Positions 27,397 through 47,307 of a DNA stretch of 64,000 nucleotides are shown here, in pieces. Within the stretch, counting starts at the first letter, position 1. Each line of letters opens with the position of its first letter. Source of the stretch: an uncultured Ectothiorhodospiraceae bacterium (GTDB lineage Bacteria > Pseudomonadota > Gammaproteobacteria > S012-40); the NCBI GenBank assembly GCA_945787715.1, contig CALZJE010000015.1, positions 1-64,000 on the forward strand, given 5' to 3'. The notes beneath the pieces are model-generated. The model saw nothing but the letters and a program-made list of their open reading frames with translations. It ran no database searches and was not told the DNA's origin. The translations under genes were made by a program, and so were the position numbers.

Positions 27397-27697
27397 TTTC
27401 TTGTAGATAGTTAATTAACTCTTTCTTCTCTTCATTGGAAAGAGGGAGATACGCATTTTTGATGCGATGATTTTGCATTCGCTCAATAACGTTAGGCCAT
27501 TCTTTAGCTTTATGGACCGTAGGAGATGGCAATCCATGACATGCACTGCAAAATTCTTTAAAAATTTTGCCACCTACACTATCCAAATTAGGGATAGTCG
27601 CTGTCATTTGGCTTTGTGGATGATTTTTACTATCGCAGCCTGAACTCAATAAGACAGTAAGAACTAATGCGAAGGAAACAACAAATTTAATTGTCAT
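27383..27697 (-). CDS. Lipoprotein cytochrome c
   Basis: 104 residues. Lipobox LSSGC (C21) indicates membrane anchoring. One heme c site CSACH at C50/C53/H54, followed by GLPSP. A single class I cytochrome c domain, about 75 residues. Likely an electron shuttle or donor for the oxidase encoded in this island. Overlaps both neighbours by about 11-14 bp. Confidence 0.88.
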   Translation of the reverse strand: MTIKFVVSFALVLTVLLSSGCDSKNHPQSQMTATIPNLDSVGGKIFKEFCSACHGLPSPTVHKAKEWPNVIERMQNHRIKNAYLPLSNEEKKELINYLQENAAG

Positions 27698-28109
27698 TTT
27701 TAATCTTGTCTTCTGTTTCTTTTTCGCTATTCTTTTCTTCTTTCTTCTCAGCTAGCTGGTGCCGTAAATCGACAAAATAGTAAATAATAAAGCTCATTAC
27801 AACAACCCAAGCAACACCCATCGGTATTCCCCAATCAAACCAGGGTCTCTCATATCCCGGTCGATTGCCCCAGAAAGGGAAAGTCAAACCAATTGCAACA
27901 ATAAGTAAAACAAAAAATATTGCAATAAACCAATAAGGAATACCTACCTTAGACTCAGCCATTGAAGAAAGCATTTCCCAATCTTCTAAACCACGCTTTT
28001 CTTTGCGCTCTTCGTCATCCTCATACCCAAAGTTGCTATCAGAAGTTTGTCCCCAGGCGGGCTCTTTTACAGATTCAGGAATTTTTTTTGAATCATCTTC
28101 TTTATTCAT
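27687..28109 (-). CDS. Two-helix membrane protein with WGxRP and PWFDxG motifs
   Basis: 140 residues. A charged cytoplasmic head (1-55), then helices at about 57-77 and 96-113, then a charged tail. FPFWGNRP (77-84) and PWFDWG (89-94) lie between the helices. The 211-residue protein at 35997-36632 has the same pair as PIWGQRP (61-67) and PWFDKG (172-177), but with about 100 extra residues in the periplasmic loop. The two look like paralogues. Family unknown; the position suggests a subunit or assembly factor of the oxidase. Confidence 0.75.
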   Translation of the reverse strand: MNKEDDSKKIPESVKEPAWGQTSDSNFGYEDDEERKEKRGLEDWEMLSSMAESKVGIPYWFIAIFFVLLIVAIGLTFPFWGNRPGYERPWFDWGIPMGVAWVVVMSFIIYYFVDLRHQLAEKKEEKNSEKETEDKIKNDN

Positions 28110-28114
28110 ATTTT

Positions 28115-29419: not shown

Positions 29420-29584
29420 GTTGAAATCTTACCAGATCGGAGAATAAAACTCACTGAAAAGACTTGTGTTAATATAAATGTTTAGATATAGTCAATGCTA
29501 CGCTTTTCTGGGAATAAGGTGTTGCTGAGCTATATAACTATATGCATAGTAACGATGTTATAAGTAAATCGAGGGGGATTTTTC

Positions 29585-29713
29585 ATGGTAACAGAGATCG
29601 GAATAAATATTTTAGTACCAATCATCACATTTGGTTTTATTATTGTTGGTGCTTACATGATGGCAAACGCAGCGTTTACTGACGTTGTTGAGCGCAGAAA
29701 CAAAGGCGAGTAA
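29585..29713 (+). CDS. Single-helix micro-protein (42 residues)
   Basis: A hydrophobic segment spans about residues 7-28 (ILVPIITFGFIIVGAYMMAN), followed by a charged end VVERRNKGE. A strong ribosome site GAGGGGG precedes ATG, and an efficient terminator starts 19 bp after the stop, both supporting a real gene. It lies alone on the plus strand between two minus-strand operons of the oxidase island. Size and topology resemble CcoQ/CcoM-type or CydX-type oxidase peptides, but likeness is topological only. Confidence 0.75.
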   Translation: MVTEIGINILVPIITFGFIIVGAYMMANAAFTDVVERRNKGE

Positions 29714-29731
29714 AATTTACTCGCACTTTGA

Positions 29732-29762
29732 TTAAAAAAAGCCCAATCTGGGCTTTTTTTTT
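29732..29762. terminator. Bidirectional rho-independent terminator
   Basis: GCCCA-ATC-TGGGC (29741-29753) flanked by a run of A on the left and nine T on the right. It can end the micro-protein transcript on the plus strand and the long minus-strand operon that finishes at 29786. Confidence 0.9.
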
Positions 29763-29785
29763 GCCTGAATTTCAACCGCGCTTTT

Positions 29786-32401: not shown

Positions 32402-32422
32402 TATAAAATCAAAAAGTATTAA

Positions 32423-32779
32423 TTATTTGAAGGGGAAAAACCATACTATGCCAACCACTGCATGCGCTACTGCTAAAAACACAGTGATACCGGCACAAAT
32501 CATATGCTGGACAAACACTTCTTTGCCCTTCATTACCATTGCTATTCCAAACCCGGCAGTAAGAAAGACAAAAAATAAGAGAGATATCCCCATGTAGAAC
32601 ATAACTTCATGTTGAAATTTCTGCTCATCATAAGATTCAATCAATTCTCCGCGCTCAGAACCATGGAATGACTTTAAAACATCCGCACGCTCATTTGCAA
32701 AAACTCCTGAAGATAAAATAAGGCAAAACGGTAAAATCAGATATAGAGATAATCTATACAAACGTTTTAAAACAACCAC
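32423..32779 (-). CDS. Exported two-helix membrane protein of the oxidase island
   Basis: 118 residues. An N-terminal signal-like helix (8-28, ending SSGVFA), a periplasmic charged stretch, then two helices (about 57-78 and 92-115) joined by a loop MKGKEVFVQH. No family recognised. Located between the 76-residue protein and the 871-residue protein. Its layout, with an exported head and a paired helix hairpin, suggests a small accessory subunit; this is inferred. Confidence 0.7.
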   Translation of the reverse strand: MVVLKRLYRLSLYLILPFCLILSSGVFANERADVLKSFHGSERGELIESYDEQKFQHEVMFYMGISLLFFVFLTAGFGIAMVMKGKEVFVQHMICAGITVFLAVAHAVVGIVWFFPFK

Positions 32780-32812
32780 AAATTACTACTCCCAAATTTA
32801 TTCTGACTTTGC

Positions 32813-33025
32813 TTAGCTAGTCTTTTTTTTACCTGAATATTTCCAATACAAAAAAGCCATTAGAATTGCAGGTAGCAACACCATTGGTAAAAGAAAGATA
32901 AAAATTGCCCAAGGTGTTTCAATAGTTACATGTAACCAACGATAGCTGTCTGTAGCAGCAAATGCGTTACCTGATAGTGACATAAAGATAAAAACAGTAA
33001 ATAGTTTAACTACCAAATTGCTCAT
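32813..33025 (-). CDS. Small membrane protein with signal peptide
   Basis: 70 residues from ATG at 33025; GGAGG lies 9 bases upstream, which favours this start over an ATG six codons earlier. Signal peptide to about residue 23 (SGNAFA), then a short segment with YRWLHVTIETPW and a membrane helix (about 38-62) and basic tail SGKKKTS. Its start overlaps the 3' end of the FGE-fold gene by about 20 bp. No family recognised. Confidence 0.72.
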   Translation of the reverse strand: MSNLVVKLFTVFIFMSLSGNAFAATDSYRWLHVTIETPWAIFIFLLPMVLLPAILMAFLYWKYSGKKKTS

Positions 33026-34109
33026 TGCTTGCAACCTCCGCATTTAGTGGCTCTACATCTTTAACACACCGAAAACCATAAAAGTCAGAAGTTAAATTAG
33101 GCCAAGAATAATTCCTATGGTAAGAAGATGTTGAGAAAGGATCACCTTTCCACGATCCTCCTCGCATTACTTTATATTTCAAATCTGTGTCTATAATATC
33201 CGCAATTTTTTTATCTCGATCTTCTTTTTTAGCTGAGACCACATGTCTCTTAGCTTTAAATATTTCTAAAGGAGCGTCAGATTTACTATACGGATCAAAA
33301 TTATCTTCAACCCATTCTGATACATTACCAGCCATATCTAAAACACCATATGGGCTTGCACCATCTAAATATGATCCCACTGGAGTAGTCGAACCTACGT
33401 TATAATAGGTATTCAACAATTTAGTATCCATGAATTGTCCCCACGGCCAGCGACGCTCGTCTGTTCCTCTAGCAGCTTTTTCCCACTCAGCTTCAGACGG
33501 TAAGCGTTTTTTAGCCCAAGTGCAAAATGCTTTCGCATCAAACCAAGAAACCATAGTTACTGGGTGAAAAGTTTTCTCGGGCGCAAAGCGCCCATCAGAC
33601 CAATTTAGAGGAACACGATATGCAGTTTCTGCAACAAATCTTGCGTATTGCGCATTTGTTACCGGATATTTATCTATAAAATACGTAGGTGTATTTATTT
33701 TGTGCGCAGGTCGATTTTGTGAATCTGTTTTTAAATTGTTAGTTCCCATGATGAACTCCCCTTCGGGAATTTCTACCATAGACTCCAACCGTTGCCATTC
33801 AATAACTGGGAGCATCCCATGCACTTCTTCAATGGTATAAGAAATGGTATGTGTTACACCCCGTTCATGAAGCACATTTCTGAACAAATCTTCTCCGGCA
33901 GCGCGAATTTTTTTGCTCTCATCCTCTAGATCATAACCAGCCATTGCTCTCATATCTTGCATACGATTTGCGCCAAGCTGTACAACATGGATAGAACCGA
34001 AGACCAATGCGACCACAATACATGTAACAAATGTCGCACCAATGTAACGTCGCCTAATAGCCAGTTCTTCTTTGGATAAAGGAGCTTTTTTACTTACATA
34101 CTTAGTCAT
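33006..34109 (-). CDS. Membrane-anchored formylglycine-generating-enzyme-fold protein, cysteines absent
   Basis: 367 residues. One membrane helix at 22-42, a ~60-residue linker, then a SUMF1/FGE-sulfatase domain (about 105-355): IPEGEFIMGT, then YPVTNAQYARFV, RLPSEAEWEKAARG, YGVLDMAGNVSEWVED and YGFRC. The catalytic Cys pair of true FGE, expected just after RGGSW, is replaced: RGGSWKGDPFSTSS. It is therefore more likely a structural or binding member, like NirV beside nitrite reductase genes. Substrate unknown. It lies in the accessory operon of the oxidase island. Confidence 0.88.
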   Translation of the reverse strand: MTKYVSKKAPLSKEELAIRRRYIGATFVTCIVVALVFGSIHVVQLGANRMQDMRAMAGYDLEDESKKIRAAGEDLFRNVLHERGVTHTISYTIEEVHGMLPVIEWQRLESMVEIPEGEFIMGTNNLKTDSQNRPAHKINTPTYFIDKYPVTNAQYARFVAETAYRVPLNWSDGRFAPEKTFHPVTMVSWFDAKAFCTWAKKRLPSEAEWEKAARGTDERRWPWGQFMDTKLLNTYYNVGSTTPVGSYLDGASPYGVLDMAGNVSEWVEDNFDPYSKSDAPLEIFKAKRHVVSAKKEDRDKKIADIIDTDLKYKVMRGGSWKGDPFSTSSYHRNYSWPNLTSDFYGFRCVKDVEPLNAEVASNEQFGS

Positions 34110-34118
34110 AATTGCAAT

Positions 34119-34604
34119 CTAATCTGTGTTTTCAGCGTTTTTCAATTGATAACGCTTATGAATCAAATGTTTTGGGCGTCGACCATAGGTCTTTTTAATA
34201 ACAAATTCGCCAATTAAACCACCTGCAGCTGCCGCTTCCATAGAAACTATAATAATCAATATCCAGTAGCCAATTGGCAACAACATTACTCCATCAGGAA
34301 ATAAAGCAGTATCGATACTGTAGTAACCAAAAATACGAACAAACAACGGAGCAAAATGTGCCAACATTTTACCACCAAGACCGTAAATCAAAGACACAAC
34401 AAATCCAGCTACTAACGGTACAAAAATTAAATCAAGTACCCATATAGGGCTAAACGTTGAAATACCAAAATACACTTCCAGACTTACATTTAATAAGCGA
34501 TCACCGAAATAGACGATTGCCGACCCCACTGAGAGCGCCATTATTCCCCATAAAATATCAAGTACAATGACTTTATATTCATATTTTTTATGAGTCTTCA
34601 TCAT
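34119..34604 (-). CDS. Four-helix membrane protein of the oxidase island
   Basis: 161 residues. Helices at about 12-30, 54-75, 83-95 and 106-132 with a glycine-rich segment EAAAAGGLIGEFVIKKTYGR and a basic cytoplasmic tail. No recognised family or heme-binding motif. It overlaps the upstream cytochrome c gene by 4 bp, so translation is probably coupled. A membrane partner of the cytochrome or the FGE-fold protein is plausible but inferred. Confidence 0.72.
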   Translation of the reverse strand: MMKTHKKYEYKVIVLDILWGIMALSVGSAIVYFGDRLLNVSLEVYFGISTFSPIWVLDLIFVPLVAGFVVSLIYGLGGKMLAHFAPLFVRIFGYYSIDTALFPDGVMLLPIGYWILIIIVSMEAAAAGGLIGEFVIKKTYGRRPKHLIHKRYQLKNAENTD

Positions 34605-35077
34605 AATTTTTTGCCTGTAAGTTTTTCTTGACGCGCTTTATTTGTTTCCTCGAGATACCAATCCTCAACCTTCAAACTTGCAATATACGCCGCGAGATCA
34701 CGTCTTTCTTGATCACTTAAATATGAATAAGACGGCATTCTGTACTGAGGTTTAAGGCGTGTACTCAGCATATCCTGAGGAACCTTAGCTGAAAAATAGC
34801 TATACAACCACTCTTCGTCTCTAAACATCCCCATACCATCAAGAGCCGGGGCCGGAACTGCGATGGTCATATCTTTAGTTGCCCAAAGGCTATGACATTC
34901 TTTACACCTATTATCCCTCATTAATTGAGAAGCTGAGGAAGTCAACTCCTGAGAAGCTGTGGAATAAAATGGAATACCAGGATCCTCTCCTTCTTCGTGC
35001 TTTGATATTTTAACAACCGCTAACACTGCAACCGAGGCAACCATTAAACCAATTATCAGCTTCTCACCTTTCCGCAT
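34601..35077 (-). CDS. Membrane-anchored monoheme cytochrome c
   Basis: 158 residues. An N-terminal anchor helix (6-23) after a basic start, then one heme c site CKECH at C58/C61/H62. A methionine suited to the distal ligand is in RMPSYSYL. It resembles the cytochrome at 41627-42232 in layout: basic GEK start, anchor, CxxCH near 58-71, then a D/E-W-[IL] helix and a final alpha helix. The two are likely paralogues serving the same oxidase. Confidence 0.9.
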   Translation of the reverse strand: MRKGEKLIIGLMVASVAVLAVVKISKHEEGEDPGIPFYSTASQELTSSASQLMRDNRCKECHSLWATKDMTIAVPAPALDGMGMFRDEEWLYSYFSAKVPQDMLSTRLKPQYRMPSYSYLSDQERRDLAAYIASLKVEDWYLEETNKARQEKLTGKKL

Positions 35078-35079
35078 TA

Positions 35080-35349
35080 TTAATTACTTCTATCCTGTTT
35101 CTTTTTTATAAACTCTTTTCTTGATTTTGTTTGATCTTTCATAACTTCTTGGTACTTTTTAAACTCATCTGGTTCCATCTTATCTTGATCATCGTTATCA
35201 AAAAGAACATATTTAATATCTTCATCGAATTGGTCGTTCTTAGCAGCCCAACGCAACATGAATCCAGCTGCGATAAGAATAAATGCCGCCACCACCAACC
35301 ATAAATAGATAGTCCATCCATCGGGTAAATTTTCTACAAACTCAATCAT
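35080..35349 (-). CDS. CcoS-like small membrane protein
   Basis: 89 residues with one helix (about 14-34), then WAAKNDQFDEDIKYVLFDND. This matches the CcoS pattern of a membrane helix followed by SGQFDD...ILFDD, though CcoS is about 50-60 residues and this has a longer acidic and basic tail. CcoS is required for cbb3 oxidase assembly (heme and copper insertion in CcoN). It starts the cytochrome-FGE run together with the 109-residue protein upstream. Confidence 0.72.
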   Translation of the reverse strand: MIEFVENLPDGWTIYLWLVVAAFILIAAGFMLRWAAKNDQFDEDIKYVLFDNDDQDKMEPDEFKKYQEVMKDQTKSRKEFIKKKQDRSN

Positions 35350-35362
35350 TACAACACCTCAT

Positions 35363-35692
35363 TTAAAGAAGGTAACCTTCAATTAATTGAATATACCCAA
35401 TAATTACCGCCAATATTACGCCAAAAATTAACGCGCCAAACATAATTTTTTCTCCAGTTTTTAATAGGGCCAGTTTCTTGGGTAAATAAAGATAGATAAT
35501 AAAACAAAAGAGAATTAATGATAGTATCAAAAATATAAATATATAAATGCTAAATTCTCTCGCACGCAAACTTTCAATACTCATATCAATACCAAAAACG
35601 GTACTGTTTTGAGTAGCTGTACTCACACTTATATTGTCTAAGTTAAACATTGGTAAAACCGAGAGCAATATATCTAAAATAAATTCCAACAT
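35363..35692 (-). CDS. Two-helix membrane protein, first gene of accessory operon
   Basis: 109 residues. Hydrophobic segments at about 47-68 and 84-103, preceded by a polar N-terminal region. No family recognised. It follows a terminator at 35790-35817 and precedes the CcoS-like gene by 13 bp. The promoter of the 35692-29786 operon should lie in about 35693-35790. Confidence 0.65.
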   Translation of the reverse strand: MLEFILDILLSVLPMFNLDNISVSTATQNSTVFGIDMSIESLRAREFSIYIFIFLILSLILFCFIIYLYLPKKLALLKTGEKIMFGALIFGVILAVIIGYIQLIEGYLL

Positions 35693-35789
35693 CGTATCCC
35701 CAGAAAAGCCTCATATTTATCTAAATGCTCACAAAAAGATAATACAACAAAGGTAATTCAATAATCCTGACTAGTCTACTACAAAATAA

Positions 35790-35818
35790 AAAGCCGCTCT
35801 ATATAAGAGCGGCTTTTT
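35790..35818 (-). terminator. Rho-independent terminator of the ccoN-like operon
   Basis: GCCGCTCT and AGAGCGGC pair around ATATA (35793-35813) with flanking A and T tracts. It lies about 25 bp after the 48-residue gene on the minus strand. It may also function on the plus strand, but no plus-strand gene precedes it. Confidence 0.9.
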
Positions 35819-35840
35819 AGTACAAGAACTAACTTAACGT

Positions 35841-35987
35841 TTAGTTAAACACGTCATCGGTATCTTCTTCTTGCTGGTGCTTTCTCCAGTGCGCATCCAC
35901 GAAGAACAAACCGTAGATCGCAGGGCAAATAAATACTACTGCAATCCACAACATGAATACACCTGGACCATAATCTAAATCAATCAT
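35841..35987 (-). CDS. CcoQ-like single-helix micro-protein (48 residues)
   Basis: One helix (about 8-30: GVFMLWIAVVFICPAIYGLFF) and an acidic tail after DAHWRKHQQEE. A ribosome site (AAGGAG) precedes ATG. Last gene of the ccoN-ccoO-211-aa run, 9 bp after the 211-residue gene and 23 bp before a terminator. CcoQ, also a small single-helix subunit of cbb3 oxidases, lies next to ccoO, so this is a candidate functional counterpart, based on size and position only. Confidence 0.82.
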   Translation of the reverse strand: MIDLDYGPGVFMLWIAVVFICPAIYGLFFVDAHWRKHQQEEDTDDVFN

Positions 35988-35996
35988 GACAACTCC

Positions 35997-36632
35997 TTAA
36001 GATTTATTCATAGCTGGTTTACGTGAGTAATGTGGTAATTTTTTAATCAAAAGTACCATAACAATCACAAAGTAAGCAACGTAAAACATATCGATGCCCA
36101 TACCTTTATCAAACCAAGGCTGTTTACGCTCTCTAAAACCACCTTCAACAAAGTTACCTTCGAAGTTAGCAAGGCTGATTCTATCCCCTAGAACATTGTA
36201 GTTATCTAACGGATATTTACCGCCACCAGCTTGAAGCTCTTTAATGCCAGGAGCAATGTTTAGAAGGTCGTCCCAAGCTAATGGATGACGCTCCAAATCA
36301 CCTTTCAAACGAGAATCAGCGGTAGCCATAGCCTGTTGAAAAAGAAAATTAATTTTCTCTTCTCCAGTTGCTAAACGTTGAACTTCAGCTGAATCCATAT
36401 TGGCAACAATCCCTTCATAGATAGCAGCATTAGGACGCTGCCCCCAGATAGGCATAGTTACCAAGAACGCAGTTAAAATAATTAACGCAATCAAGTAAGT
36501 CAAAGGAAGCGGCAAGCGATTATTAGCAGTCCAAAGACCACCATGCTTCTCTTTTTCCCAAAGCTCAAGCGTCTCTTTCTGCTCTTGCTCATCCGACAGA
36601 CAGTATAGCGGTTGGTCAAATTTCCAAGCCAT
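35997..36632 (-). CDS. Two-helix membrane subunit candidate, WGxRP/PWFDxG family
   Basis: 211 residues. Charged cytoplasmic head, helix 1 (about 42-62) ending PIWGQRP, a ~105-residue periplasmic loop, PWFDKG, helix 2 (about 179-197) and a basic tail. Good ribosome site GGGAGGAAG. It lies between ccoO-like and the 48-residue gene, where ccoP normally sits, but has no CxxCH. A role as third subunit replacing CcoP is inferred. It shares motifs with the 140-residue protein at 27687. Confidence 0.8.
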   Translation of the reverse strand: MAWKFDQPLYCLSDEQEQKETLELWEKEKHGGLWTANNRLPLPLTYLIALIILTAFLVTMPIWGQRPNAAIYEGIVANMDSAEVQRLATGEEKINFLFQQAMATADSRLKGDLERHPLAWDDLLNIAPGIKELQAGGGKYPLDNYNVLGDRISLANFEGNFVEGGFRERKQPWFDKGMGIDMFYVAYFVIVMVLLIKKLPHYSRKPAMNKS

Positions 36633-36646
36633 TTAATCTTCCTCCC

Positions 36647-37603
36647 TTATCGCAAGCTTGTTAATACCCAATCCATAAGAGCTCTAACTTCAGAGTCTCT
36701 CGCTGGTTCAGGTACTTCAGGTGGGTAAATAGACTGGCCATTTACATATGCAGTGTAATCTGAACGCCATTTTTTGTAGTCTATAGACTTACCGTTAATA
36801 TCGGTTTTGCCCCATAGATAATCAAAACGCGGCATAATTGAATTAGGCTGCACCAATCTTGGATTAAAAAAGTGCATAGTCATCCATTCTCTAGATGAGT
36901 TACGCGCTGCTACATGCAATAAGTCTGGAGCCTTACGGTCCGAACCAAAGGCAGTAGGCATCTCTCCGTTCATATCACCTAAGAATGGAGGTGCACCGAA
37001 AAACTGCCAATCTTGAGTTTGCTCTGGTAACAAAGTATGACACCACCAGCAACCTTCAGTGATAAAGATAGTTTTACCTTTACCAACATAACGATGATTT
37101 TCATCGCCAGCAGCTTTTAATACTTGTCCAGGTTGCCAACCACTAACAGCGGTTTGATTAACGATATAATCTACTTCTTCACCGTTAAACTCACCTTGTG
37201 CAATAGTGAATACCGCACCATTACTCATATCAGCTTGACCAATCTTACCAGTGTTCAAACTTAACTCCATGACACCAGGGCCAAGAAGCTCATTATGGTT
37301 TACACCAGGTGAAAATTTAATACCAGGCTCATACACATATGCACGAATTGGCGGATCATAAGTCGCACCTGTTTTTGGATCTTTATCCAAAATAACAGTT
37401 ACTGGCTTACCATCACCAATTACCAATGGATCTTCGTAACTGAAACCAATTACACGACCCAGAGACAATTGCTTATCCAATCCTACCCAAGTTGAAACAC
37501 CAGAACGAAAATCGTTCGATGGACCAAGCAAGGTAATACACATCGAGAAGCCAAACATTAATCCGATAGCCGCAGCACCGAATCTATATTGTTGAAAGCC
37601 CAC
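36647..37603 (-). CDS. CcoO-like membrane cytochrome c with large insertion
   Basis: 318 residues; GTG start with GGGAGGAG 8 bases upstream. One N-terminal helix (8-27). The heme c site CWWCH is at C185/C188, whereas in usual CcoO it lies near residue 70. So a ~100-residue periplasmic beta-rich segment (about 40-170: PVTVILDKDPKTGATYDPP, GPGVMELSLNTGK) is inserted. The rest follows CcoO/FixO: FGSDRKAPDLLHVA, HFFNPR and MPRFDYLW, with Met as distal ligand. It probably passes electrons to the CcoN-like subunit. Second gene of its operon. Confidence 0.9.
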   Translation of the reverse strand: MGFQQYRFGAAAIGLMFGFSMCITLLGPSNDFRSGVSTWVGLDKQLSLGRVIGFSYEDPLVIGDGKPVTVILDKDPKTGATYDPPIRAYVYEPGIKFSPGVNHNELLGPGVMELSLNTGKIGQADMSNGAVFTIAQGEFNGEEVDYIVNQTAVSGWQPGQVLKAAGDENHRYVGKGKTIFITEGCWWCHTLLPEQTQDWQFFGAPPFLGDMNGEMPTAFGSDRKAPDLLHVAARNSSREWMTMHFFNPRLVQPNSIMPRFDYLWGKTDINGKSIDYKKWRSDYTAYVNGQSIYPPEVPEPARDSEVRALMDWVLTSLR

Positions 37604-37691
37604 TTGTAATCTCCTCCCTAACTTTTCTGAACCCCTCCGAGGTCATGATCAATCAAACCTCGAAGAAGAGCGGATAGCTTACAATCGATTA

Positions 37692-39101
37692 TTAACGTTC
37701 GTAAGCCAACTCATGTGCGTAACGTCCAGCAGGAACAATAGTACCTTCACGAGCAGTCATCCACATGTTGTATAACCAAATTACATTACCGGTAAACACC
37801 ATAGTACCACCAGCCCATCGTGCGATCATATACGGATGCTCCGCAACAACAACATCGATGTATGGTACTTCGTAGATTTTACCTGCACCTTGGATAAGAC
37901 CAGCAATAGTCATTGAAATCCAGTAAATACAGAAACCGATGATGAAGAACCAATAATGCAAGTTAGCCAAAGTTAGTGAGTAAAGCTTTCTACGAAGTAC
38001 TGATTGCAGACCGAAGTAAACAGCTGCAGCTTCCAAGAAGCTAGACATACCTAACAATGCCAAGTGAGCATGAGCCACGATCCAACCAGTACCATGAACG
38101 TACCAGTTAATAGCGCGAGTTTGTTGGAAGCCACCTTGCATGTTTAGCGGAATTGCTAGAAGAACACCAGTAATAGAGAACTTAGTTTCAATATTCTCTA
38201 CAAACATGCTCCACTTGCCTTTCATAGTTAACAAAATGTTAGCAACGAAAGCTACCGCAGGGATAAGAATCAATACACCTTCTACAGATGCGAAAGATTT
38301 CAACCACTCAGGCAGAGGTGCTGACATCAAGTGATGAGAAGCAGGAGTTGAGTAGAACGCAATGATCGCCCAGAAATGCAAGTGACCAATACGGTGAGAA
38401 TAAAGTGGATTACCAGTTAGCTTAGGAATTGTGTAGTAAGCAATTGCTGCTGCAACTGGCGTAATCCACAAACCCAATACGTTGTGAGCAAACCAGAACG
38501 TCAAGTAAGCTTCTGTCAATCCTGTTAAGTTGAATAGCTCTGGAGAGTTACCCACCAAGAACACAATCATTAACATGAAGATACAAGCACCGAAGAACCA
38601 GTTAGTGATGTAGATACCTTGTGTTCTACGATGAGCTATTGTCATCCAAACGTTTATACCAAGCGGTAGCAATACACCAAAAATAACAACTAAATCGATT
38701 GGCCAGATCAAGTCAGAATATTCACGACCCGCTGTTATGCCCATCCATAATAGAATCAAACCTAAGCTTAGGCCAACATTCCACATGAATACTGTCCAAA
38801 GACCTAGTTTTTCAGACCAGAGCTTGGTATTACCAAGTGCTGGAGTCATATACATCATAGTCATACCAAACGCCATAGAAATCCAACCAAGGATTACTGC
38901 AAGTACATGTACTTGACGCATATGACCAAAAGCAAATAACTCAGTACCGGTTACCCAGTCTGGAAATGCAAGTTTTGCAGCATTAAAGGACCCTAAACCT
39001 GTCCCTACAACAAACCAAAAAATTGATGAAAAGCCAAAAAAGATCGTTGCCGAACCCGCAGGAATTTCGTCATTTTTGGCGAAGAGATATTTCATCAGCA
39101 T
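37692..39101 (-). CDS. CcoN-like catalytic subunit of a divergent C-family heme-copper oxidase
   Basis: 469 residues, twelve helices. Ligands by position: low-spin heme His H65 (RQVHVL), CuB His H206 (FAHNVLGLW), CuB HH H256-H257, and HAH H344/H346 for the hemes. Tyr250 lies six residues before the HH pair, as does the cross-linked Tyr of cbb3 oxidases, so O2 reduction is favoured over NO reduction. The Glu of the cbb3 FEGPMMS segment appears as Gln (MQGGFQQ, Q322). Good GGGAGGTG ribosome site. It is followed by ccoO-like; no CcoP is present. Confidence 0.92.
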   Translation of the reverse strand: MLMKYLFAKNDEIPAGSATIFFGFSSIFWFVVGTGLGSFNAAKLAFPDWVTGTELFAFGHMRQVHVLAVILGWISMAFGMTMMYMTPALGNTKLWSEKLGLWTVFMWNVGLSLGLILLWMGITAGREYSDLIWPIDLVVIFGVLLPLGINVWMTIAHRRTQGIYITNWFFGACIFMLMIVFLVGNSPELFNLTGLTEAYLTFWFAHNVLGLWITPVAAAIAYYTIPKLTGNPLYSHRIGHLHFWAIIAFYSTPASHHLMSAPLPEWLKSFASVEGVLILIPAVAFVANILLTMKGKWSMFVENIETKFSITGVLLAIPLNMQGGFQQTRAINWYVHGTGWIVAHAHLALLGMSSFLEAAAVYFGLQSVLRRKLYSLTLANLHYWFFIIGFCIYWISMTIAGLIQGAGKIYEVPYIDVVVAEHPYMIARWAGGTMVFTGNVIWLYNMWMTAREGTIVPAGRYAHELAYER

Positions 39102-39150
39102 GAAAATTCACCTCCCAGTTTAAATTTAACCCCAGAAAAAGATATAAAAA

Positions 39151-39240
39151 TCATTCTTTCATCTTATTCATTATGTACCAAGAAAACCACATACTCGAGA
39201 ACGCTAACAGTATCCCGCATGCCCCTGCAAATGTAGCCAT
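39151..39240 (-). CDS. Single-helix micro-protein (29 residues) before ccoN-like gene
   Basis: A hydrophobic helix of about 20 residues (ACGILLAFSSMWFSWYIMN) with a basic-acidic end KMKE. A strong ribosome site (AAAGGGGGATAATT before ATG) supports translation. It lies between the 100-residue gene and the CcoN-like gene. It is comparable in size to CcoM and CydX oxidase peptides, but no sequence family is recognised. Confidence 0.7.
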   Translation of the reverse strand: MATFAGACGILLAFSSMWFSWYIMNKMKE

Positions 39241-39268
39241 AATTATCCCCCTTTACATACTAAATGCT

Positions 39269-39571
39269 TTACCAAGCAGTATTGTCGCCTCGAGATTCGA
39301 TTTCGCCGTGTTTACTCATGGCTAGACCTGTAATGATTGCGAAGGCTAAACCAAACACAAGCATCATCCAATCAACGAATCCAGAGAAAGTTGACGGATC
39401 AAAAGCTTCTGCTCCCCAACCACCCCAATTATCATAGGGGCCTCGACCAACAGCACACATAACCGCAGCGCCAAATACGCTGCCATTTCCCATTCCAGTT
39501 GTAAATGCCGCCACAATTAGAACGAAAAATGTCTTACCTAACGTTAATTTATTTTTCATATCTCCCTCCAA
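39269..39571 (-). CDS. Two-helix membrane protein upstream of ccoN-like gene
   Basis: 98 residues from the inner ATG (M3-M5 region: EGDMKNK; starts at 39571 or 39559). A first helix (about 9-40, TFFVLIVAAFTTGMGNGSVFGAAVM), a loop with GRGPYDNWGGWGAEAFDP, then a second helix (about 68-88) and a charged tail. Aromatic-Gly-rich loop is unusual. No family recognised. It begins the ccoN operon, with a likely promoter in 39572-39875. Confidence 0.7.
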   Translation of the reverse strand: MEGDMKNKLTLGKTFFVLIVAAFTTGMGNGSVFGAAVMCAVGRGPYDNWGGWGAEAFDPSTFSGFVDWMMLVFGLAFAIITGLAMSKHGEIESRGDNTAW

Positions 39572-39875
39572 AGCGAGTTAAAACTCACAACCCGAAGCTC
39601 CAATCAAAATAAAATAATTTTGTTTTAAAAGGAACTTACAGAAACCCTGAAATCGTGACATACACACAACATGAGGTCAAGACAAATGTAGAAAAAGTTG
39701 TAGAACACTTGCTTGAAAAATAAACGTAATAATTTAAATTGAAAAAATAAACAAATTCATAACGAGAGGTGAGCAAATTTTAACCCCGAGACTTATTTCT
39801 CATTCACACAAAACACTTCTTTTCAAAAAATATTTTCATTAAGATGTAAAGCCAACTCAAATAAAGAATCTGAAA
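39572..39875. other. Divergent intergenic region, no recognised site
   Basis: Separates the minus-strand ccoN operon from the plus-strand 66-residue gene. AT-rich, likely holding both promoters. I saw no convincing FNR box (TTGAT-N4-ATCAA), palindrome or RNA. Confidence 0.4.
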
Positions 39876-40076
39876 ATGAAAAGAGAAGTGTTTATATATT
39901 TACTAATCGCAACAAGTTCTCTGCTGATGATTTCGTATGTTCCACACATGTTCCTGGATGGACTTGTAAGCGACGAATTGAAATTTAATATTACGGTGGC
40001 TATAACGATATCTTGGGCAATAGGGCTTATAGCATTAGGCGTGGATATCGTTAAAAAAAGAAAAGGGCTTAAATGA
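39876..40076 (+). CDS. Small two-helix membrane protein in oxidase island
   Basis: 66 residues. Helices about 4-28 and 40-58 with a basic tail VKKRKGLK. Initiation site is weak. No family recognised. It is the only plus-strand gene between the two minus-strand groups and its product may work with the oxidase. Confidence 0.65.
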   Translation: MKREVFIYLLIATSSLLMISYVPHMFLDGLVSDELKFNITVAITISWAIGLIALGVDIVKKRKGLK

Positions 40077-40108
40077 TTAAGCCCTGGAAAAAAATAAGAA
40101 ATGACGCT

Positions 40109-40564
40109 TTATTTAAAAATTCTAAGTTGAGCTTTCGAGCCGTCAAATTCAGACTCGTTAGCAAATTGACCCTTATGAAATACATACTGCTGTTTGTTGC
40201 CGCTCAAATCAACACCAGCCAACCCAAAACTCTTGCCAGCAAAATCAGTAAAAAATCGTATATCTTTTACCAGATCCACTTGACTACCACTGCGATGAGT
40301 AACACTCACACCCTTCTTAGATACCGAAAAAGAGACTGGCGCAGAGGGCAGCAACATTAATCGTGTTTTTGCTATACGATTGAATGCAATAAAAAACACA
40401 AATGTAATGAGAAAAACTAACAAATAAACAATGCCCTCATCACCATTAAACCATAGCTTTGAGGCAACAATTGACAACGCTATTAAAGTTGGGATATATA
40501 AAACCAAATCCCAAACAACACCTTTTTTATCTTGTATTAAATCATATTCAGATTTTTGAGCCAT
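40109..40564 (-). CDS. Membrane protein with PH-like C-terminal region
   Basis: 151 residues. Two helices (about 19-40 and 45-65) followed by a ~80-residue beta-rich domain (RLMLLPSAPVSFSVSKKG, then VDLVKDIRFF), the layout of small bacterial PH-like membrane proteins. Function unknown. It follows the thioredoxin-fold lipoprotein by 6 bp and is the last gene of that operon. Confidence 0.68.
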   Translation of the reverse strand: MAQKSEYDLIQDKKGVVWDLVLYIPTLIALSIVASKLWFNGDEGIVYLLVFLITFVFFIAFNRIAKTRLMLLPSAPVSFSVSKKGVSVTHRSGSQVDLVKDIRFFTDFAGKSFGLAGVDLSGNKQQYVFHKGQFANESEFDGSKAQLRIFK

Positions 40565-40570
40565 TAATAC

Positions 40571-41098
40571 CTAACCCTTTTGCTGCCCAACTATTCGCCC
40601 AAGATGATGATCCAACTCGCCGTAAAGAAGGCGACCGGCCTGCTTCCACTGCACCATCCCTTCCTTGTCAACTATAAAAGTCCAAGGGTCGCCTCTCACT
40701 TGAAATGCAATAAAAGCTTGTGGATTCTTGTATTGATCCATATGTAGGAACACCACATCTTCATCATACTTAGAAAGCATGGCCTTTAGCATTTGCAACT
40801 GCTTATCACAGACCGTGCAATGACCAGGTGTGGCAAACTCAACCAATACTGTTTTATCCAGCGCCAAGGCTTCGTCAATAGAATACTGATACATTCTTTC
40901 ATCTGGATAACGATAGGTGGTAAGCCGTGACATATCGCCATCTACATCTTTCAATGTAGAAGTCTTTACCGAAGGAGCCGCTTCCCCAACCTGCAATTTC
41001 CCTTCTGGAGCCTCCATACCGCAGCCACCGAAGAACAGGGCAGTAAACGCTGCTAAACCAGCCAGCACAGCAATAACAGAAGATAAACTATTTCTCAT
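40571..41098 (-). CDS. Thioredoxin-fold lipoprotein
   Basis: About 175 residues from ATG at 41098, which overlaps the stop of the CcoN-fragment gene by 11 bp; the longer frame back to 41176 is a shadow. Lipobox FGGC (C26) after a signal helix. Redox motif CTVC (C94/C97) inside a thioredoxin fold (VLVEFATPGHCTVCDKQ), then AFQVRGDPWTFIVDKEG with the cis-Pro-like segment. Likely a periplasmic thiol reductant for heme c or copper-site assembly in this island. Confidence 0.82.
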   Translation of the reverse strand: MRNSLSSVIAVLAGLAAFTALFFGGCGMEAPEGKLQVGEAAPSVKTSTLKDVDGDMSRLTTYRYPDERMYQYSIDEALALDKTVLVEFATPGHCTVCDKQLQMLKAMLSKYDEDVVFLHMDQYKNPQAFIAFQVRGDPWTFIVDKEGMVQWKQAGRLLYGELDHHLGRIVGQQKG

Positions 41099-41627
41099 AA
41101 CCCTTCTCCCAACCCTTGCAGGTATGAAATAAATTATATGCCCAAATGCAATTCGCCAAAAGAACCAATGTGCCAAATATACCCATAGTTGCCAATAACG
41201 GCTTTACAATCAATTCTACCTCTGCAGGTGATGAATGAACACTTGCCATCCCCCCCATAACACCAGCCATGACAAAAAACACTACCATGCCTATCAAGCC
41301 TATATTGTGTATCCAGAAATGAACGATAACTAAACGCAAGCTGTAAATTGGGCGATTAACCAGACGGGGAATAACATAGTAAACCGCACCAAATATTGCC
41401 ATCTCCACCCAGCCCAACAGATTTATGTGAGTATGCCCACGTACAATCAAATCTCCGTGTAGGCGATGATCAACAAAATGCCTAAGCTCAGAAATGCCAC
41501 CCATTACCGCGCCCCAAGAAAAGCCAATCAGGCTATAAATAATGCAGGCATAAATAAACCATAAAGTATATTTTCGATAAACAAGTTCTTTTTCATGACA
41601 CCATGTCTCATTCAAGTTAGCACTCAT
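41088..41627 (-). CDS. Stand-alone C-terminal half of a CcoN-type subunit
   Basis: 179 residues with about four to five helices. The segment RGHTHINLLGWVEMAIFG with YYVIPRLVNRPIYSLRL corresponds to helices X-XII of CcoN, including the H-x-H pair (H65/H67). The N-terminal two-thirds of CcoN, with the CuB histidines and Tyr, is missing, so this cannot be a catalytic subunit. It could bind heme b and serve as an electron-transfer or regulatory subunit. It lies directly after a membrane cytochrome c gene and overlaps it by one base. Confidence 0.85.
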   Translation of the reverse strand: MSANLNETWCHEKELVYRKYTLWFIYACIIYSLIGFSWGAVMGGISELRHFVDHRLHGDLIVRGHTHINLLGWVEMAIFGAVYYVIPRLVNRPIYSLRLVIVHFWIHNIGLIGMVVFFVMAGVMGGMASVHSSPAEVELIVKPLLATMGIFGTLVLLANCIWAYNLFHTCKGWEKGYEK

Positions 41628-42232
41628 TACCTCCCTACCTCTTGCTCTTCAGAGACTTGCTCTTCTTCAGGCTTAATTCTATCGCGAATATCGGTATACT
41701 TCTCTGACCATTCTTTCGGCGCCCACGCTTTCACCATTCCATCGATAAATACAGAATGCTCAGGGGGGGGAGCGGGTGCTACAGATGATCCCGCATCTGC
41801 ACGTAGCTCAGACAAAAATATTGCAATAAGCCTTCTATCTTCTTTAGACATTCTCATGGCATATGAAGCCTCCTTTGGAGGAAGACCATGATCAAGAGTT
41901 TCGTGACCATAAGTTGCTTCAGGATTAATCAAAAACGCCTCTATCCATTCCAACGATCTTTTCGAACCTATACCATCTAAAATTAACCCCATGCTTGTCC
42001 CCATGCGTAACGCTCTATGACATGAGTTACATCTTGCTTTTTGATAGATCGAAGACCCTTTTTTTCCTTCTTCACTGAAATCAAAATGAGTTGTTTGCTT
42101 GAACATAGGTTCATCAGCGTTTAGACGAACTGTCTCTAATACTGCGTATGCAACCATAGCCAACAAAAAGAAAACTCCAAAAATAATAAGTAGAATCTTT
42201 TCACCCGGCTTAAGCTGTTGAGATCTTTTCAT
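41627..42232 (-). CDS. Membrane-anchored monoheme cytochrome c
   Basis: 201 residues. Basic start, anchor helix (about 13-32), heme c site CNSCH at C68/C71/H72, Met-rich segment AMRMSKEDRR, and a Pro/Glu-rich C-terminal tail (last ~50 residues). It parallels the cytochrome at 34601-35077. First gene of an operon leading into the CcoN-fragment and thioredoxin-fold lipoprotein, an arrangement suggesting electron transfer from this heme to the b-heme fragment. Confidence 0.88.
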   Translation of the reverse strand: MKRSQQLKPGEKILLIIFGVFFLLAMVAYAVLETVRLNADEPMFKQTTHFDFSEEGKKGSSIYQKARCNSCHRALRMGTSMGLILDGIGSKRSLEWIEAFLINPEATYGHETLDHGLPPKEASYAMRMSKEDRRLIAIFLSELRADAGSSVAPAPPPEHSVFIDGMVKAWAPKEWSEKYTDIRDRIKPEEEQVSEEQEVGR

Positions 42233-42310
42233 GCATCACCAAACCTTTAAAAAAACTGAGATTTGATTATACATAATAATAATTTATTAAAAAGATCGGG
42301 AATAAAAAAA

Positions 42311-42328
42311 GGCGGATATAAATCCGCC
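42311..42328 (-). terminator. Rho-independent terminator after the diheme cytochrome gene
   Basis: GGCGGAT-ATAA-ATCCGCC with flanking A/T tracts, 30 bp after the stop at 42358. It separates the cytochrome c4-like gene from the monoheme cytochrome operon. Confidence 0.88.
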
Positions 42329-42357
42329 TTTTCTATTTTACTTCACTTAACAACCAA

Positions 42358-43119
42358 TTAATGGTCGTAAGGAGTGTAGTAGTTGCTGTCCGAGTAATCA
42401 GAAGCATTTGTCAAATATGCTGCAGCATTTTTGATATCTTCATCAGACATATTGCGAGCAATAACTTGCATTTGACTCATTGGGTCATTGGTACGAGTAC
42501 CATCTCTCCATGCTTTCAATTGATTAACCAGGTAAACATAACGCTGACCACCGATACGAGGATAAATAGGTGGTGCACCACGACCATTATAGCCATGGCA
42601 AGAGCGACATGCAGCGACAGGTTTTGCTCTGTTGCCTTGCCCCCATTCTACCAAGCTTTTACCCTTGTGACTCAAGCCAACTTCAACACCGTTAGCCGCT
42701 AACTCTTTTAGATCTGAACCAGCAAATGCCATTTTCCCCATAGCACCAGGCTTAATCGATTCAAGATATGTAGAAACGTCTGTACGATCCTGCGCACTCA
42801 AACCTTTAGCATTATCATTCATGACAAACATAGTAGAATCTTTACGTTTGTCGGTTGCGTAGTCTTCAAGCTGCTTTCTTAAGAACACAGCGTATTGACC
42901 CGCGATACGAGGAGTGCCCATATTGTCGTCGCCCATGCCATCACTACCGTGACATGAACCACACGCAGGAACAGATCCCTTACCATTTTCAAAAATGGCT
43001 TTGCCATTGGCAATATTGCCTTTACCTTTTGGATACATCGCGCTTGAAAAAGCAATTGACGGTACAACCACGCCAATTACTAAAGCAGCCGTAGATACGG
43101 CAGAAATAAAACGTCGCAT
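42358..43119 (-). CDS. Diheme cytochrome c, c4-like
   Basis: 253 residues. Signal peptide to about 25, then two class I cytochrome c domains: CGSCHGSDGMGDDNMGTPRIAGQ (C53/C56) and CRSCHGYNGRGAPPIYPRIGGQ (C171/C174), each followed by the YLxxQLxxxR helix of cytochromes c4. This soluble periplasmic protein commonly donates electrons to cbb3-type oxidases. Single gene between a terminator and a 32-residue frame upstream. Confidence 0.94.
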   Translation of the reverse strand: MRRFISAVSTAALVIGVVVPSIAFSSAMYPKGKGNIANGKAIFENGKGSVPACGSCHGSDGMGDDNMGTPRIAGQYAVFLRKQLEDYATDKRKDSTMFVMNDNAKGLSAQDRTDVSTYLESIKPGAMGKMAFAGSDLKELAANGVEVGLSHKGKSLVEWGQGNRAKPVAACRSCHGYNGRGAPPIYPRIGGQRYVYLVNQLKAWRDGTRTNDPMSQMQVIARNMSDEDIKNAAAYLTNASDYSDSNYYTPYDH

Positions 43120-43665: not shown

Positions 43666-45138
43666 ATGAATCAAGCAAAAGAGCTATTGGAAAAATACTG
43701 GGGCTATCTCGCGTTATTAATTTGGATTGGTGCTGCCGTTGCGTTTGACTTAGTTAGGCTAACGCCCTTCGCCTTGGATGAGGAAGCGGCTAAAGGCTTG
43801 CTCCTCACCTGGACAGTGTCCGACAACATCGTGAACCCCGTTGTAATCTTTGGACTACCAGATTTCCGAGCTTTGCTCTATGCTCCTATAGGTACTTATT
43901 GGCCCGGTAATTTATTAGCTGCAAAAATAATGAGCCTTGCAATTGCATTTGTCGCCGTTACCCTGCTATATCGTTGGGCTCGAAAAAACTCAGATGCCGA
44001 AACCGCATTGATTGCTTCTATTCTTTTGCTCGTTTCTCCCGCACTCATAACACAAGTAGATTCACTAAGTGCAGGCCCTTATATTTTATTAGGATTTGCG
44101 CTCGGCGTTTGGCTGGACAACGCATATAGAAAGAGTGATAAATATTTTGGTGGTTGGTATTTTTCGCAAATGCTATGGGTTGCCATCTTATCAACCCTCC
44201 ACCCAATTGCCTTAGCGTATCCGATCGTCATCGCATGGAATTGGTACAAACGTCCACATGCGGTAAAATCATCACGCCACATGTATATAGGGTTGGCAAT
44301 AGCGATAACACTGTCTTTGTTAATGAGAGGCGGCTGGCACGATTTTGCCATTTTCCAAAATCCAATCGAATATCTGGCGATTGCACTACAAGGCGCCATA
44401 GTATGGAGTGCCGCTGATATTCAATGGTGGCCGGGAATTATTGCAGCGGTATTGCTAGTGTTCGTTATTATTAGTGATTTTAAAAACATCGCCAAAGATA
44501 CCCTCAGTCAAATAATTATTGCTTGTATTGCACTAGGTGTGGTGATGCCGGATTCAAACTGGGCGTTTATTGGCGTAACTTTTTTGATCTATCGAGGTAC
44601 ACACCACCTAATTCAATTTAATAATTCTAGAAATAAGCAAGGTGCGGTAGGACAAAGAGGGATTGTGTTTGTCGTTGCACTGGTCGTTTGCTCATTTTTC
44701 ATGCTTCAGGATAAGAATCACGTACTAACAATCAAACACGCCCTCCTTGCGCCAGAAGATGAACTAATACAAAGTGTCATGGCCATCGCTGAAGATGAGA
44801 GCAAAGCTTTTCGCATAGCAAGCCAATGGCCAGGCCGCACAATGCTGGCAACAAAGCGTGATGTTTTACCTTTACCGCCTGCACTGGATGATAAGGATGA
44901 GATGCTTAAAGCCATAAAAAGCATTACTCACATCGTATTTGATCCATACAAACCAAAAAATAAAGCACTGGCTAATGCAATATCAAACCTGGGTGGGGAA
45001 ACAGAAACACTTGGGCTATTAAAAGCAGGTGCAATCATTAAAGTGAGAAATCACAAAGTTAGGCTCTCAACACAGCAACGAATCGATCAACAAGACATAA
45101 AAAATAATTCAGAGGAAGTGCTAGACAAACCACAATAA
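43666..45138 (+). CDS. Polytopic membrane protein, glycosyltransferase-39-like
   Basis: 490 residues with about 11 helices. An early acidic motif FALDEEAAKGLL follows the first helix, in the place of the catalytic Asp/Glu loop of ArnT/PMT-type lipid-linked glycosyltransferases; the WPGNLLAAKIMSL segment follows. The C-terminal ~120 residues are soluble. Specific substrate cannot be named. It is monocistronic, ending with a strong hairpin at 45171. Confidence 0.6.
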   Translation: MNQAKELLEKYWGYLALLIWIGAAVAFDLVRLTPFALDEEAAKGLLLTWTVSDNIVNPVVIFGLPDFRALLYAPIGTYWPGNLLAAKIMSLAIAFVAVTLLYRWARKNSDAETALIASILLLVSPALITQVDSLSAGPYILLGFALGVWLDNAYRKSDKYFGGWYFSQMLWVAILSTLHPIALAYPIVIAWNWYKRPHAVKSSRHMYIGLAIAITLSLLMRGGWHDFAIFQNPIEYLAIALQGAIVWSAADIQWWPGIIAAVLLVFVIISDFKNIAKDTLSQIIIACIALGVVMPDSNWAFIGVTFLIYRGTHHLIQFNNSRNKQGAVGQRGIVFVVALVVCSFFMLQDKNHVLTIKHALLAPEDELIQSVMAIAEDESKAFRIASQWPGRTMLATKRDVLPLPPALDDKDEMLKAIKSITHIVFDPYKPKNKALANAISNLGGETETLGLLKAGAIIKVRNHKVRLSTQQRIDQQDIKNNSEEVLDKPQ

Positions 45139-45170: not shown

Positions 45171-45204
45171 TTCATATTTTCCGCATTAACGCGGAAAATA
45201 TGAA
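45171..45204. terminator. Fourteen-base-pair perfect hairpin after the membrane protein gene
   Basis: TTCATATTTTCCGC pairs perfectly with GCGGAAAATATGAA around a six-base loop, 32 bp after the stop at 45138. No strong U-run follows, so it may act as a terminator or as a protein-binding or stabilising stem. Confidence 0.6.
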
Positions 45205-45523: not shown

Positions 45524-46531
45524 ATGAATAAAGCCTATCACACCTTTATTATGTGGCTAATCTGGGGGGCTGCCGCCACAACCATCTATCTAGGGCTCTA
45601 TCTTGATACAGACATACTAGAGTTCCTTAGTAATGACGAAAGTAAAATAACTTGGATTATTACTATGCTATTTGTTGTGGGAGTGATCAGCAGCTTTTTC
45701 CTCACTGTAGCAATTACTGGCGAATACATTGAAGCTGCTGAACAACAAAATCTGGCGGCTAATCAAGGATTAATGGGCCTAGAAAAAACAGGCAAAAAAC
45801 CTAAAACGGTTAACCACTTCTTTGAATCATTAAAAGTTGTTGCCTCAAATAACGAATCACCTAGCATAGAAACACTGTTAGAGATGGAGTATGCGAGCCT
45901 ATCTCGACGAAGCCATGTCATCGAGATAATGGGTAATCTGCTAATAACACTTGGATTGATCGGTACAGTGATGGGTTTGACTTTAACATTGACTGGCTTA
46001 ACAACATCTCTCGACGCATTGGGACAGGATCAGGATTTGCTCCTCGCGGGCCTAAGAAAAGCTATGGGGGGCATGGGGACAGCTTTTTATACAACACTTC
46101 TAGGTGCTGTGTTAGGAGGCGTGCTGCTCAGAATATTCGCGCTAATAACCGAAAATGGTATAGGCAGCCTACACGATTTCATCACCAAAACCTGCATGGT
46201 ACATCTTTCAGCTGATTTTAAACCCACCGTTGAGCGCGACGTTCGTTTCTTAAATGTAGAATTAGATGCGCTGGGCAGCAAAGTACACAACCTTAAAGCA
46301 GCCTTCAGCGACACAAAAGAGTCAATAAATGACTTCCACGAAGCGGTTAAAAAATTACACTCAACAACGGATGATGACAGTGGTGTGTACACACTCCGAG
46401 AAACATTACGCATGCAAAAATATTATCGTGTGCTAATTCGCCAAGAACTAACATTAATGAATAAACTCAATCGTTCTTGGTGGGGTAGATTTAAAAATCA
46501 CTTAGATACCAAAGACGACGACAAAGAATAA
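45524..46531 (+). CDS. MotA/TolQ/ExbB-type proton channel protein
   Basis: 335 residues. Four membrane helices (about 7-27, 44-66, 134-160 and 178-208) with a cytoplasmic loop between the second and third. The core GLIGTVMGLTLTL and AMGGMGTAFYTTLLGAVLGG follow the MotA/TolQ/ExbB consensus. The last ~120 residues are helical and coiled-coil-like. It should form a pentameric ion channel with the next gene's product, 2 bp downstream. It is not a standard tolQ or exbB: no TolR, ExbD or TonB gene lies nearby. Confidence 0.88.
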   Translation: MNKAYHTFIMWLIWGAAATTIYLGLYLDTDILEFLSNDESKITWIITMLFVVGVISSFFLTVAITGEYIEAAEQQNLAANQGLMGLEKTGKKPKTVNHFFESLKVVASNNESPSIETLLEMEYASLSRRSHVIEIMGNLLITLGLIGTVMGLTLTLTGLTTSLDALGQDQDLLLAGLRKAMGGMGTAFYTTLLGAVLGGVLLRIFALITENGIGSLHDFITKTCMVHLSADFKPTVERDVRFLNVELDALGSKVHNLKAAFSDTKESINDFHEAVKKLHSTTDDDSGVYTLRETLRMQKYYRVLIRQELTLMNKLNRSWWGRFKNHLDTKDDDKE

Positions 46532-46533
46532 AA

Positions 46534-47307
46534 ATGGCTAAAAAGCGTCGTCACGTTTACACAAACATCTACGAAAGTTTCTCAGATGTGTCTTTATTGA
46601 TGCTCGCCACTTTTATCTTCTTGATGGTAACTATTCTTATTACATCCCGAATGGCGCAGGAATATGAAGTTCCTCGCTTAAAGGCTGAAATTCAAGAATT
46701 GAGAAATAAACTTGCCGCTGCAGAATTTGATGCACAACGATTGGAAAACAATCTAGGTGAGATGTCAGTTATCTCAGAAGGCGGCAGCCCGATGGCACGT
46801 ATTATTGAAGCAGCAACATTTGGCCGCAAAGATTTCGATCTCTTTATCAAAGGCCTCAAAGATCTTCCTGGTAAGGATCTGCACTTAATGATAGATGCTT
46901 CTGGTTCCATGCATGGACTAACTTCATTTCTCGTTCCCGTTTTGAGAACAATTGTTGTTCGTTCAGGAAAGCATTTATCAGCAATCACCTGGTACTCTGA
47001 TAACGAAGCTGAGACCTATACTGGTACAATGGGTTCCATGTTTGATAGTTTAATGTCTGGCGCCCCCTTTGGTGGAAATTTGGAAACAATGGGTAAAGCA
47101 TTTCGCGTAGCCGCAAGAAATGCTCCTGCTCCAGGTGCTTATGTGCTTGTTGGTGATGAGCCATCTGACGATAAAATAAGCTATTCAGAAATACCCAGCC
47201 CGGTATTTACCTTACCATTAGGCCGCTCAGATCCTGAGACTACTGAGGAATTTCAAAAAATTGCGGATAAAACGCGGGGCAAAATGCTCCATCTTGATTT
47301 CAAATGA
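46534..47307 (+). CDS. MotB/TolR-like helix fused to a von Willebrand factor A domain
   Basis: 257 residues. A basic N-terminus, then ESFSDVSLLMLATFIFLM with Asp18 in the place of the proton-carrying Asp of TolR/ExbD/MotB. A coiled coil covers about 45-78, then comes a periplasmic vWA domain (about 112-255) with the MIDAS DASGS at 121-125 and GGNLE near 185. There is no peptidoglycan-binding OmpA or TolR domain. The pair with the upstream channel predicts a proton-driven unit that acts through a metal-dependent adhesion domain. No prior description is known to me. Confidence 0.87.
   Translation: MAKKRRHVYTNIYESFSDVSLLMLATFIFLMVTILITSRMAQEYEVPRLKAEIQELRNKLAAAEFDAQRLENNLGEMSVISEGGSPMARIIEAATFGRKDFDLFIKGLKDLPGKDLHLMIDASGSMHGLTSFLVPVLRTIVVRSGKHLSAITWYSDNEAETYTGTMGSMFDSLMSGAPFGGNLETMGKAFRVAARNAPAPGAYVLVGDEPSDDKISYSEIPSPVFTLPLGRSDPETTEEFQKIADKTRGKMLHLDFK

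Follow-up and report, generated by a model that had tools for sequence, protein, structure and literature searches.

A two-gene locus in the genome of an uncultured Ectothiorhodospiraceae bacterium raises the question of what a channel subunit of the MotA/TolQ/ExbB family does when it is encoded next to a protein ending in a vWA domain, and on which client such a machine would act. In the window, as the whole 64,000-nucleotide stretch of DNA analysed here is called, the channel subunit (335 aa) is encoded at 45524..46531 and its partner (257 aa) at 46534..47307. Both genes lie on the forward strand with a 2-bp gap between them, exactly at the positions given by the original prediction. A scan for promoters and terminators gave a result no better than shuffles. 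Our favoured answer, given a little under an even chance, is a 5:2 motor driven by protons: its vWA head would act on a client in the periplasm, and its most likely purpose is the assembly or upkeep of the neighbouring oxidase chain.

The pair was studied in 23 non-redundant examples, taken from the named contigs and from other genomes, and in an extended set of 58 loci. Among the 23 pairs, identity to the window proteins is 50-80% for the partner and 36-76% for the channel. The channel gene lies directly 5' of the vWA gene in 58/58 loci, including those of genomes with two copies, and the search across genomes called for by the original prediction thus recovered the pair intact throughout. 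The association is not due to chance, since it is kept in every locus and since, when the 23 members are aligned, only four positions among the partner's first 98 residues never vary, and Asp18 is one of them. The 58 loci come from the Gammaproteobacteria and from a second class, to which Mariprofundus belongs; we regard family f200 as the Mariprofundus family and its class as the Zetaproteobacteria. All 12 other genomes searched from the window's own family carry the pair. In the class sample, a full-length homologue was found in 33 of 369 genomes, with E-values below 1e-100 that clearly separate these homologues from everything else, namely helix-only matches. The phylum sample added 43 further genomes from three families, one of which (G489) has the same gene coordinates as the Mariprofundus MAG locus L035.

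The assignment of the first gene product to the MotA/TolQ/ExbB channels was borne out by its Pfam match, its predicted fold and its membrane topology. The Pfam model MotA_ExbB matches it with E=3.7e-9 (36.9 bits against a curated cut-off of 22.9), hydropathy predicts four membrane segments, and these are accompanied by a cytoplasmic coiled-coil tail. When its AF2 model (pLDDT 77) was compared with known structures by Foldseek, ExbB, TolQ, MotA and ZorA came out on top, with E-values of 1.7e-3 or weaker and a probability of about 1. The conserved features of the channel comprise the motifs GLIGTV and GMGTAFYTT as well as T148 and T191, which are invariant together with G147 in 54/54 channels of the extended locus set (numbering of the window protein). 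In a channel tree, which has low support, the window family falls outside the ExbB/TolQ/MotA-type paralogues of its own genome. That genome contains fourteen MotA/TolQ/ExbB-type matches, and the window copy is among the two lowest-scoring ones.

The partner has a cytoplasmic N-terminus and a single membrane helix (residues 19-37 by hydropathy). This transpore-like segment is part of one continuous predicted helix, residues 12-80 (46567..46773), that combines the membrane span with a coiled coil of about 40 residues. Asp18, the predicted proton-binding residue (codon GAT, 46585..46587), lies at the cytoplasmic end of the membrane helix within the sequence ESFSDVSLLMLATFIFLMV. It is kept in 57/58 partners of the extended set, and the condition under which the original prediction was to fall, a lack of conservation in homologues, is therefore not what was found. 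The exception is the MAG locus L102, where GCT replaces GAT and encodes Ala, while close relatives retain Asp; this single Ala18 homologue speaks against the reading as a proton motor. Among the 23 partner relatives, Pfam detects MotB_plug in three and ExbD in one. The SHLS motif is absent from the partner helix sequences examined, and searching PDB sequences with the partner profile gave only marginal matches of the ZorB type (E 0.11-0.13).

Residues ~98-257 of the partner (vWA domain 98-257, 46825..47304) form a separate Rossmann-like domain in the predicted structure. No Pfam vWA model detects it, either in the window protein or in any of the 23 members, so that the vWA assignment rests on the predicted fold and on the MIDAS pattern. 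A Foldseek comparison with the PDB (E<=1e-3) retrieved vWA/I-type domains, among them VWF A2, the LFA-1 I domain, NorD and others. The metal-site residues D-x-S/T-x-S, Thr and Asp that go with this fold are present. The MIDAS motif DASGS (residues 121-125, 46894..46908) is kept as D121-x-S/T123-G-S125 along with D208 in 58/58 partners; D121, G124, S125, E184 and D208 are invariant in the same set, and T185 is Thr in 54/58, with Asn or Ser in the other four. Predicted structure, Foldseek and residue conservation together uphold the predicted succession of Asp18 helix, coiled coil and vWA domain with MIDAS, and with it the proposal that a vWA domain stands in place of the peptidoglycan-binding domain.

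The stator-type reading of the pair holds up, and its novelty does not. A 2025 article entitled 'Origin and Evolution of Bacterial Periplasmic Force Transducers' (Mol Biol Evol; PMC12204202) treats vWA motors as a second family and already predicts, in its section 8 and Fig. 4c,d, TolQ-like pentamers with dimers of transpore-helix vWA proteins bearing a conserved, proton-binding Asp; the second ground on which the original prediction was to fall, a pair already described as a stator-type system, therefore largely applies. The family, collected by a search from an Idiomarina protein, is described there as having a TolR-like transpore helix and a TolQ-like partner and as forming mostly heterologous pairs (PMC12204202). 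Like the motors in those parts of the article, the window pair consists of a TolQ-like channel gene beside a vWA gene with no tolR/exbD gene, and no ExbD-type gene recurs next to the pair in the neighbourhoods of homologous loci. The transpore helix with a conserved Asp and no SHLS motif is likewise shared, and the ring of channel threonines that the Asp is proposed to face (PMC12204202) may have its counterpart in T148 and T191. The published motors mostly have a tandem of two different vWA genes; the window family shows just one at each of its 58 loci, from which a homodimer is expected, and its vWA domain also lies below Pfam detection, in contrast with the published family (PMC12204202).

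The tandem type was encountered solely in L104 (L104:6613-9472), where two non-identical vWA genes with transpore helices come after a channel gene, an arrangement as in the cited sections of PMC12204202; the helices carry SD. One of these two vWA proteins scores above a Pfam vWA cut-off. In hhalign comparisons, the transpore helix of the window partner aligns with the two L104 helices (96% and 93%), and the Asp residues coincide; for the L104 channel, the profile of the window channel gives E 4e-23, and hhalign gives 99%. A reverse search with the L104 channel (E<=1e-12) returned only itself and the channels of pair-bearing genomes. Given this arrangement and these channel matches, the window family is best seen as a single-vWA branch of the published kind of vWA motor; the set assembled in PMC12204202, judged from the parts cited here, may already include some single-gene members.

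Further motor-like loci came to light beside these. At L105:6867-8773, L106:6145-8244 and L107:5657-7548, a channel gene and a transpore-helix gene of about 200 aa are followed by a third membrane protein. Pfam gives no match for the periplasmic domain of the transpore-helix protein, which is not of the vWA or the OmpA type, and in L107 a vWA/FHA-like gene adjoins the two. These loci appear to represent a further kind of output domain for 5:2 motors. A Zorya-like ZorA and ZorB pair was detected in genome G058 (L100:4923-7753) solely through its membrane helix.

No third gene is universal beside the pair in the neighbourhoods of homologous loci. Two elements recur: a gene for a GT-C-like membrane protein, and parts of an oxidase cluster, either its cytochrome side or its CcoG-like polyferredoxin. 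In the window, this cluster comprises sixteen genes on the reverse strand (26977..43119). It encodes a FixH-like lipoprotein, cytochromes c and a CcoG-like polyferredoxin (28115-29419), a spermine-synthase-like membrane protein and an FGE-like protein, CcoP/CcoO/CcoN-like subunits (35997-39101), the A5 membrane protein (40109-40564), thioredoxin-like, short COX1-like and cytochrome c proteins, and a cytochrome c4 (42358-43119). The CcoN-like and CcoO-like proteins score far under the equivalog cut-offs, which marks the enzyme as a divergent cbb3-like oxidase. The gene order of the cluster is identical in the Gammaproteobacteria and in the Mariprofundus-type genomes. The region of Cyc1, a diheme c4, has been reported as syntenic between Ca. 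Tenderia electrophaga and Mariprofundus, with a polyferredoxin and hypothetical genes, in a setting where a second complex IV is highly expressed (PMC5371394), and two forms of cbb3 have been described in Zetaproteobacteria (PMC7029218). As far as the passages of these two papers go, their clusters are likely the one described here. No report of an oxidase cluster containing FGE and spermidine-synthase genes came up in a literature search.

The GT-C-like protein of the window (490 aa, 43666..45138, forward strand) has no Pfam match, and single members of its family match PMT_2 (3e-5) and Glyco_transf_22. Its gene adjoins the pair or the oxidase cluster, lying 5' of the pair in the window's family and 3' of it in others. 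A near-perfect terminator-like inverted repeat (45171-45203), TTCATATTTTCCGC-attaac-GCGGAAAATATGAA, separates the GT-C-like gene from that of the channel and counts against the favoured reading of the pair. On the other side of the pair, 242 bp 3' of the vWA gene and on the same strand, lies a bactofilin gene (47550-47963), which most loci of this family retain.

The distribution of the pair almost equals that of the oxidase cluster and its adjacent GT-C-like protein, a link that is new here. Of 339 class-sample genomes, 33 have the GT-C-like protein and 34 have A5, the marker of the cluster; in 30 cases each, the pair is present as well. Expressed otherwise, GT-C is present in 30/33 pair-bearing genomes vs 3/306 others, and A5 in 30/33 vs 4/306. 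Fisher tests, which counted G170 and G362 as pair-bearing without marker, gave P ~1e-35 for both markers by genome and ~1e-15 to 1e-16 by family, values that overstate the strength of the co-occurrence because the tests ignore phylogeny; the carriers of the pair may be only two clades. Among pair-bearing genomes of the second class, A5 is found in 17/17 and GT-C in 15/17, and the CcoG-like protein is present in 22/22 pair-bearing genomes tested from both classes. The pair and the cluster are linked within ~20 kb in at least eight families, in differing gene orders; in several families they lie on different contigs or megabases apart (G252). In G170 the pair is present and no cluster marker was detected. 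Conversely, four genomes (G021, G124, G240 and G337) have the cluster with neither channel nor vWA partner, so that the oxidase cannot depend strictly on the pair. Three of the four belong to family f113 and are also missing both the 161-aa membrane protein and the adjacent GT-C gene.

Judged on homology, the pair should be a 5:2 proton-driven motor, and we infer its stoichiometry, its rotation and its use of protons as follows. Five copies of the channel would surround the transmembrane helices of two partners, and the passage of protons between Asp18 and the channel threonine ring would make the partner rotate or tilt within it. The stiff helix of about 40 residues would transmit this motion, by helix geometry, ~6 nm into the periplasm, where the paired vWA domains could grip a client protein via their metal (MIDAS) site. 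Such a reach should place the vWA head at or below the peptidoglycan, which points to periplasmic or inner-membrane clients. The better conservation of the vWA protein relative to the channel is what would be expected if the vWA domain binds a conserved client. MotAB and ExbBD/TolQR share with the pair the channel fold, the Asp helix and a conserved threonine in the pore helices. They differ in that the pair has no OmpA-like or TolR/ExbD periplasmic domain and does not adjoin flagellar, ton or tol genes; the MotA equivalog models score the channel at no more than 25 bits, with cut-offs that start at 237, and the partner is a vWA rather than an OmpA-like protein.

The output of the motor had been predicted to be adhesion or client binding. 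The adhesion half found no support, and the adhesin reading was dropped because no surface or secretion partner recurs beside the pair; binding of a client in the periplasm is the likelier output, and the genomes direct attention to the cbb3-like respiratory cluster, to which the original prediction had not tied the pair. A precedent exists in NorQ/NorD, where an engine-twisted vWA protein acts in metal insertion into, and maturation of, NO reductase (PMC13036017). Together with the short reach of the helix, it leads us to propose, with modest confidence, respiratory-chain maintenance or maturation as the leading function. The client would most likely be part of, or an assembly or maintenance factor for, the Cyc1/cbb3-like terminal oxidase chain. 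Such a machine would work on the same principle as NorQ/NorD and other MoxR-vWA pairs, an engine-driven vWA protein linked to an enzyme of the heme-copper oxidase superfamily. The engine of NorQ/NorD is a cytoplasmic AAA+ ATPase, whereas here the vWA protein is partnered by a MotA_ExbB membrane channel in place of an AAA+ MoxR protein, and the action would be driven by the proton gradient and take place on the periplasmic side.

The same proton-driven 5:2 vWA motor could instead serve the cell envelope, putting tension on outer-membrane or peptidoglycan-bound proteins or handling a surface glycan or adhesin, in which case its co-occurrence with the oxidase would reflect shared ancestry or lifestyle and no direct respiratory role. 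This is a real possibility, if a minority one. Force transduction towards the outer membrane is what the cited parts of PMC12204202 propose for such motors, the GT-C-like gene, a possible glycosyltransferase, tracks the pair in the second class and in several genomes there lies near it outside the oxidase cluster, and the window's family has a bactofilin gene 3' of the pair. However, a helix with a reach of ~6 nm does not extend to the outer membrane, the neighbourhoods of the pair show no recurring gene for an outer-membrane partner, and in several families, from both classes, the pair is linked to the CcoG-like gene or to the oxidase cluster.

Two readings dispense with this kind of motor output. 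vWA domains are known sensors of force and ligand, and the pair might be a gated proton or ion channel, for example a relief valve for the membrane potential, which would open or close when its vWA domain detects a ligand or force in the periplasm. That no force-receiving partner is always encoded with the pair would fit such a sensor, but the Asp and Thr residues of the rotary members are conserved, and the closest functionally known relatives (MotAB, ExbBD, TolQR and ZorAB) transmit force, making a gated channel unlikely. Still further down the scale, membership of the Zorya anti-phage systems is very improbable and was rejected, the similarity to ZorA being weak and the effectors absent. 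ZorAB likewise combines a channel with an Asp-helix partner, and both window proteins resemble it weakly (E 1.9e-6 for the channel with ZorA models, E 0.11 for the partner helix with ZorB). Against it, the NCBIfam ZorA models give the channel 17 bits where the cut-offs are 100 and 500, the long ZorA tail is missing, and the partner has no peptidoglycan-binding domain such as that in which ZorB-type proteins end. No ZorC/ZorD/ZorE-type genes were seen in neighbourhoods that are of housekeeping character, and the pair is present throughout the searched genomes of the window's family.

The preferred reading, a proton-driven motor acting on a client of the oxidase chain, can be taken further, to a rotary motor that works from the periplasm on the maturation or remodelling of a respiratory complex, as a membrane counterpart of NorQ/NorD, dedicated to the Cyc1/cbb3-like oxidase of Mariprofundus-type iron oxidisers and some Gammaproteobacteria. 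In this strong form the proposal is doubtful. vWA motors were predicted in 2025 without a function in the cited sections of PMC12204202, where a link to an oxidase cluster is likewise not reported, and the co-distribution of the pair with a defined oxidase cluster turns the matter into a concrete, testable hypothesis. The minimal two-gene form should be the easiest vWA motor to reconstitute. If the oxidase link is true, the maturation of a respiratory complex would be a new task for 5:2 motors beside swimming, import, envelope upkeep, gliding and phage defence.
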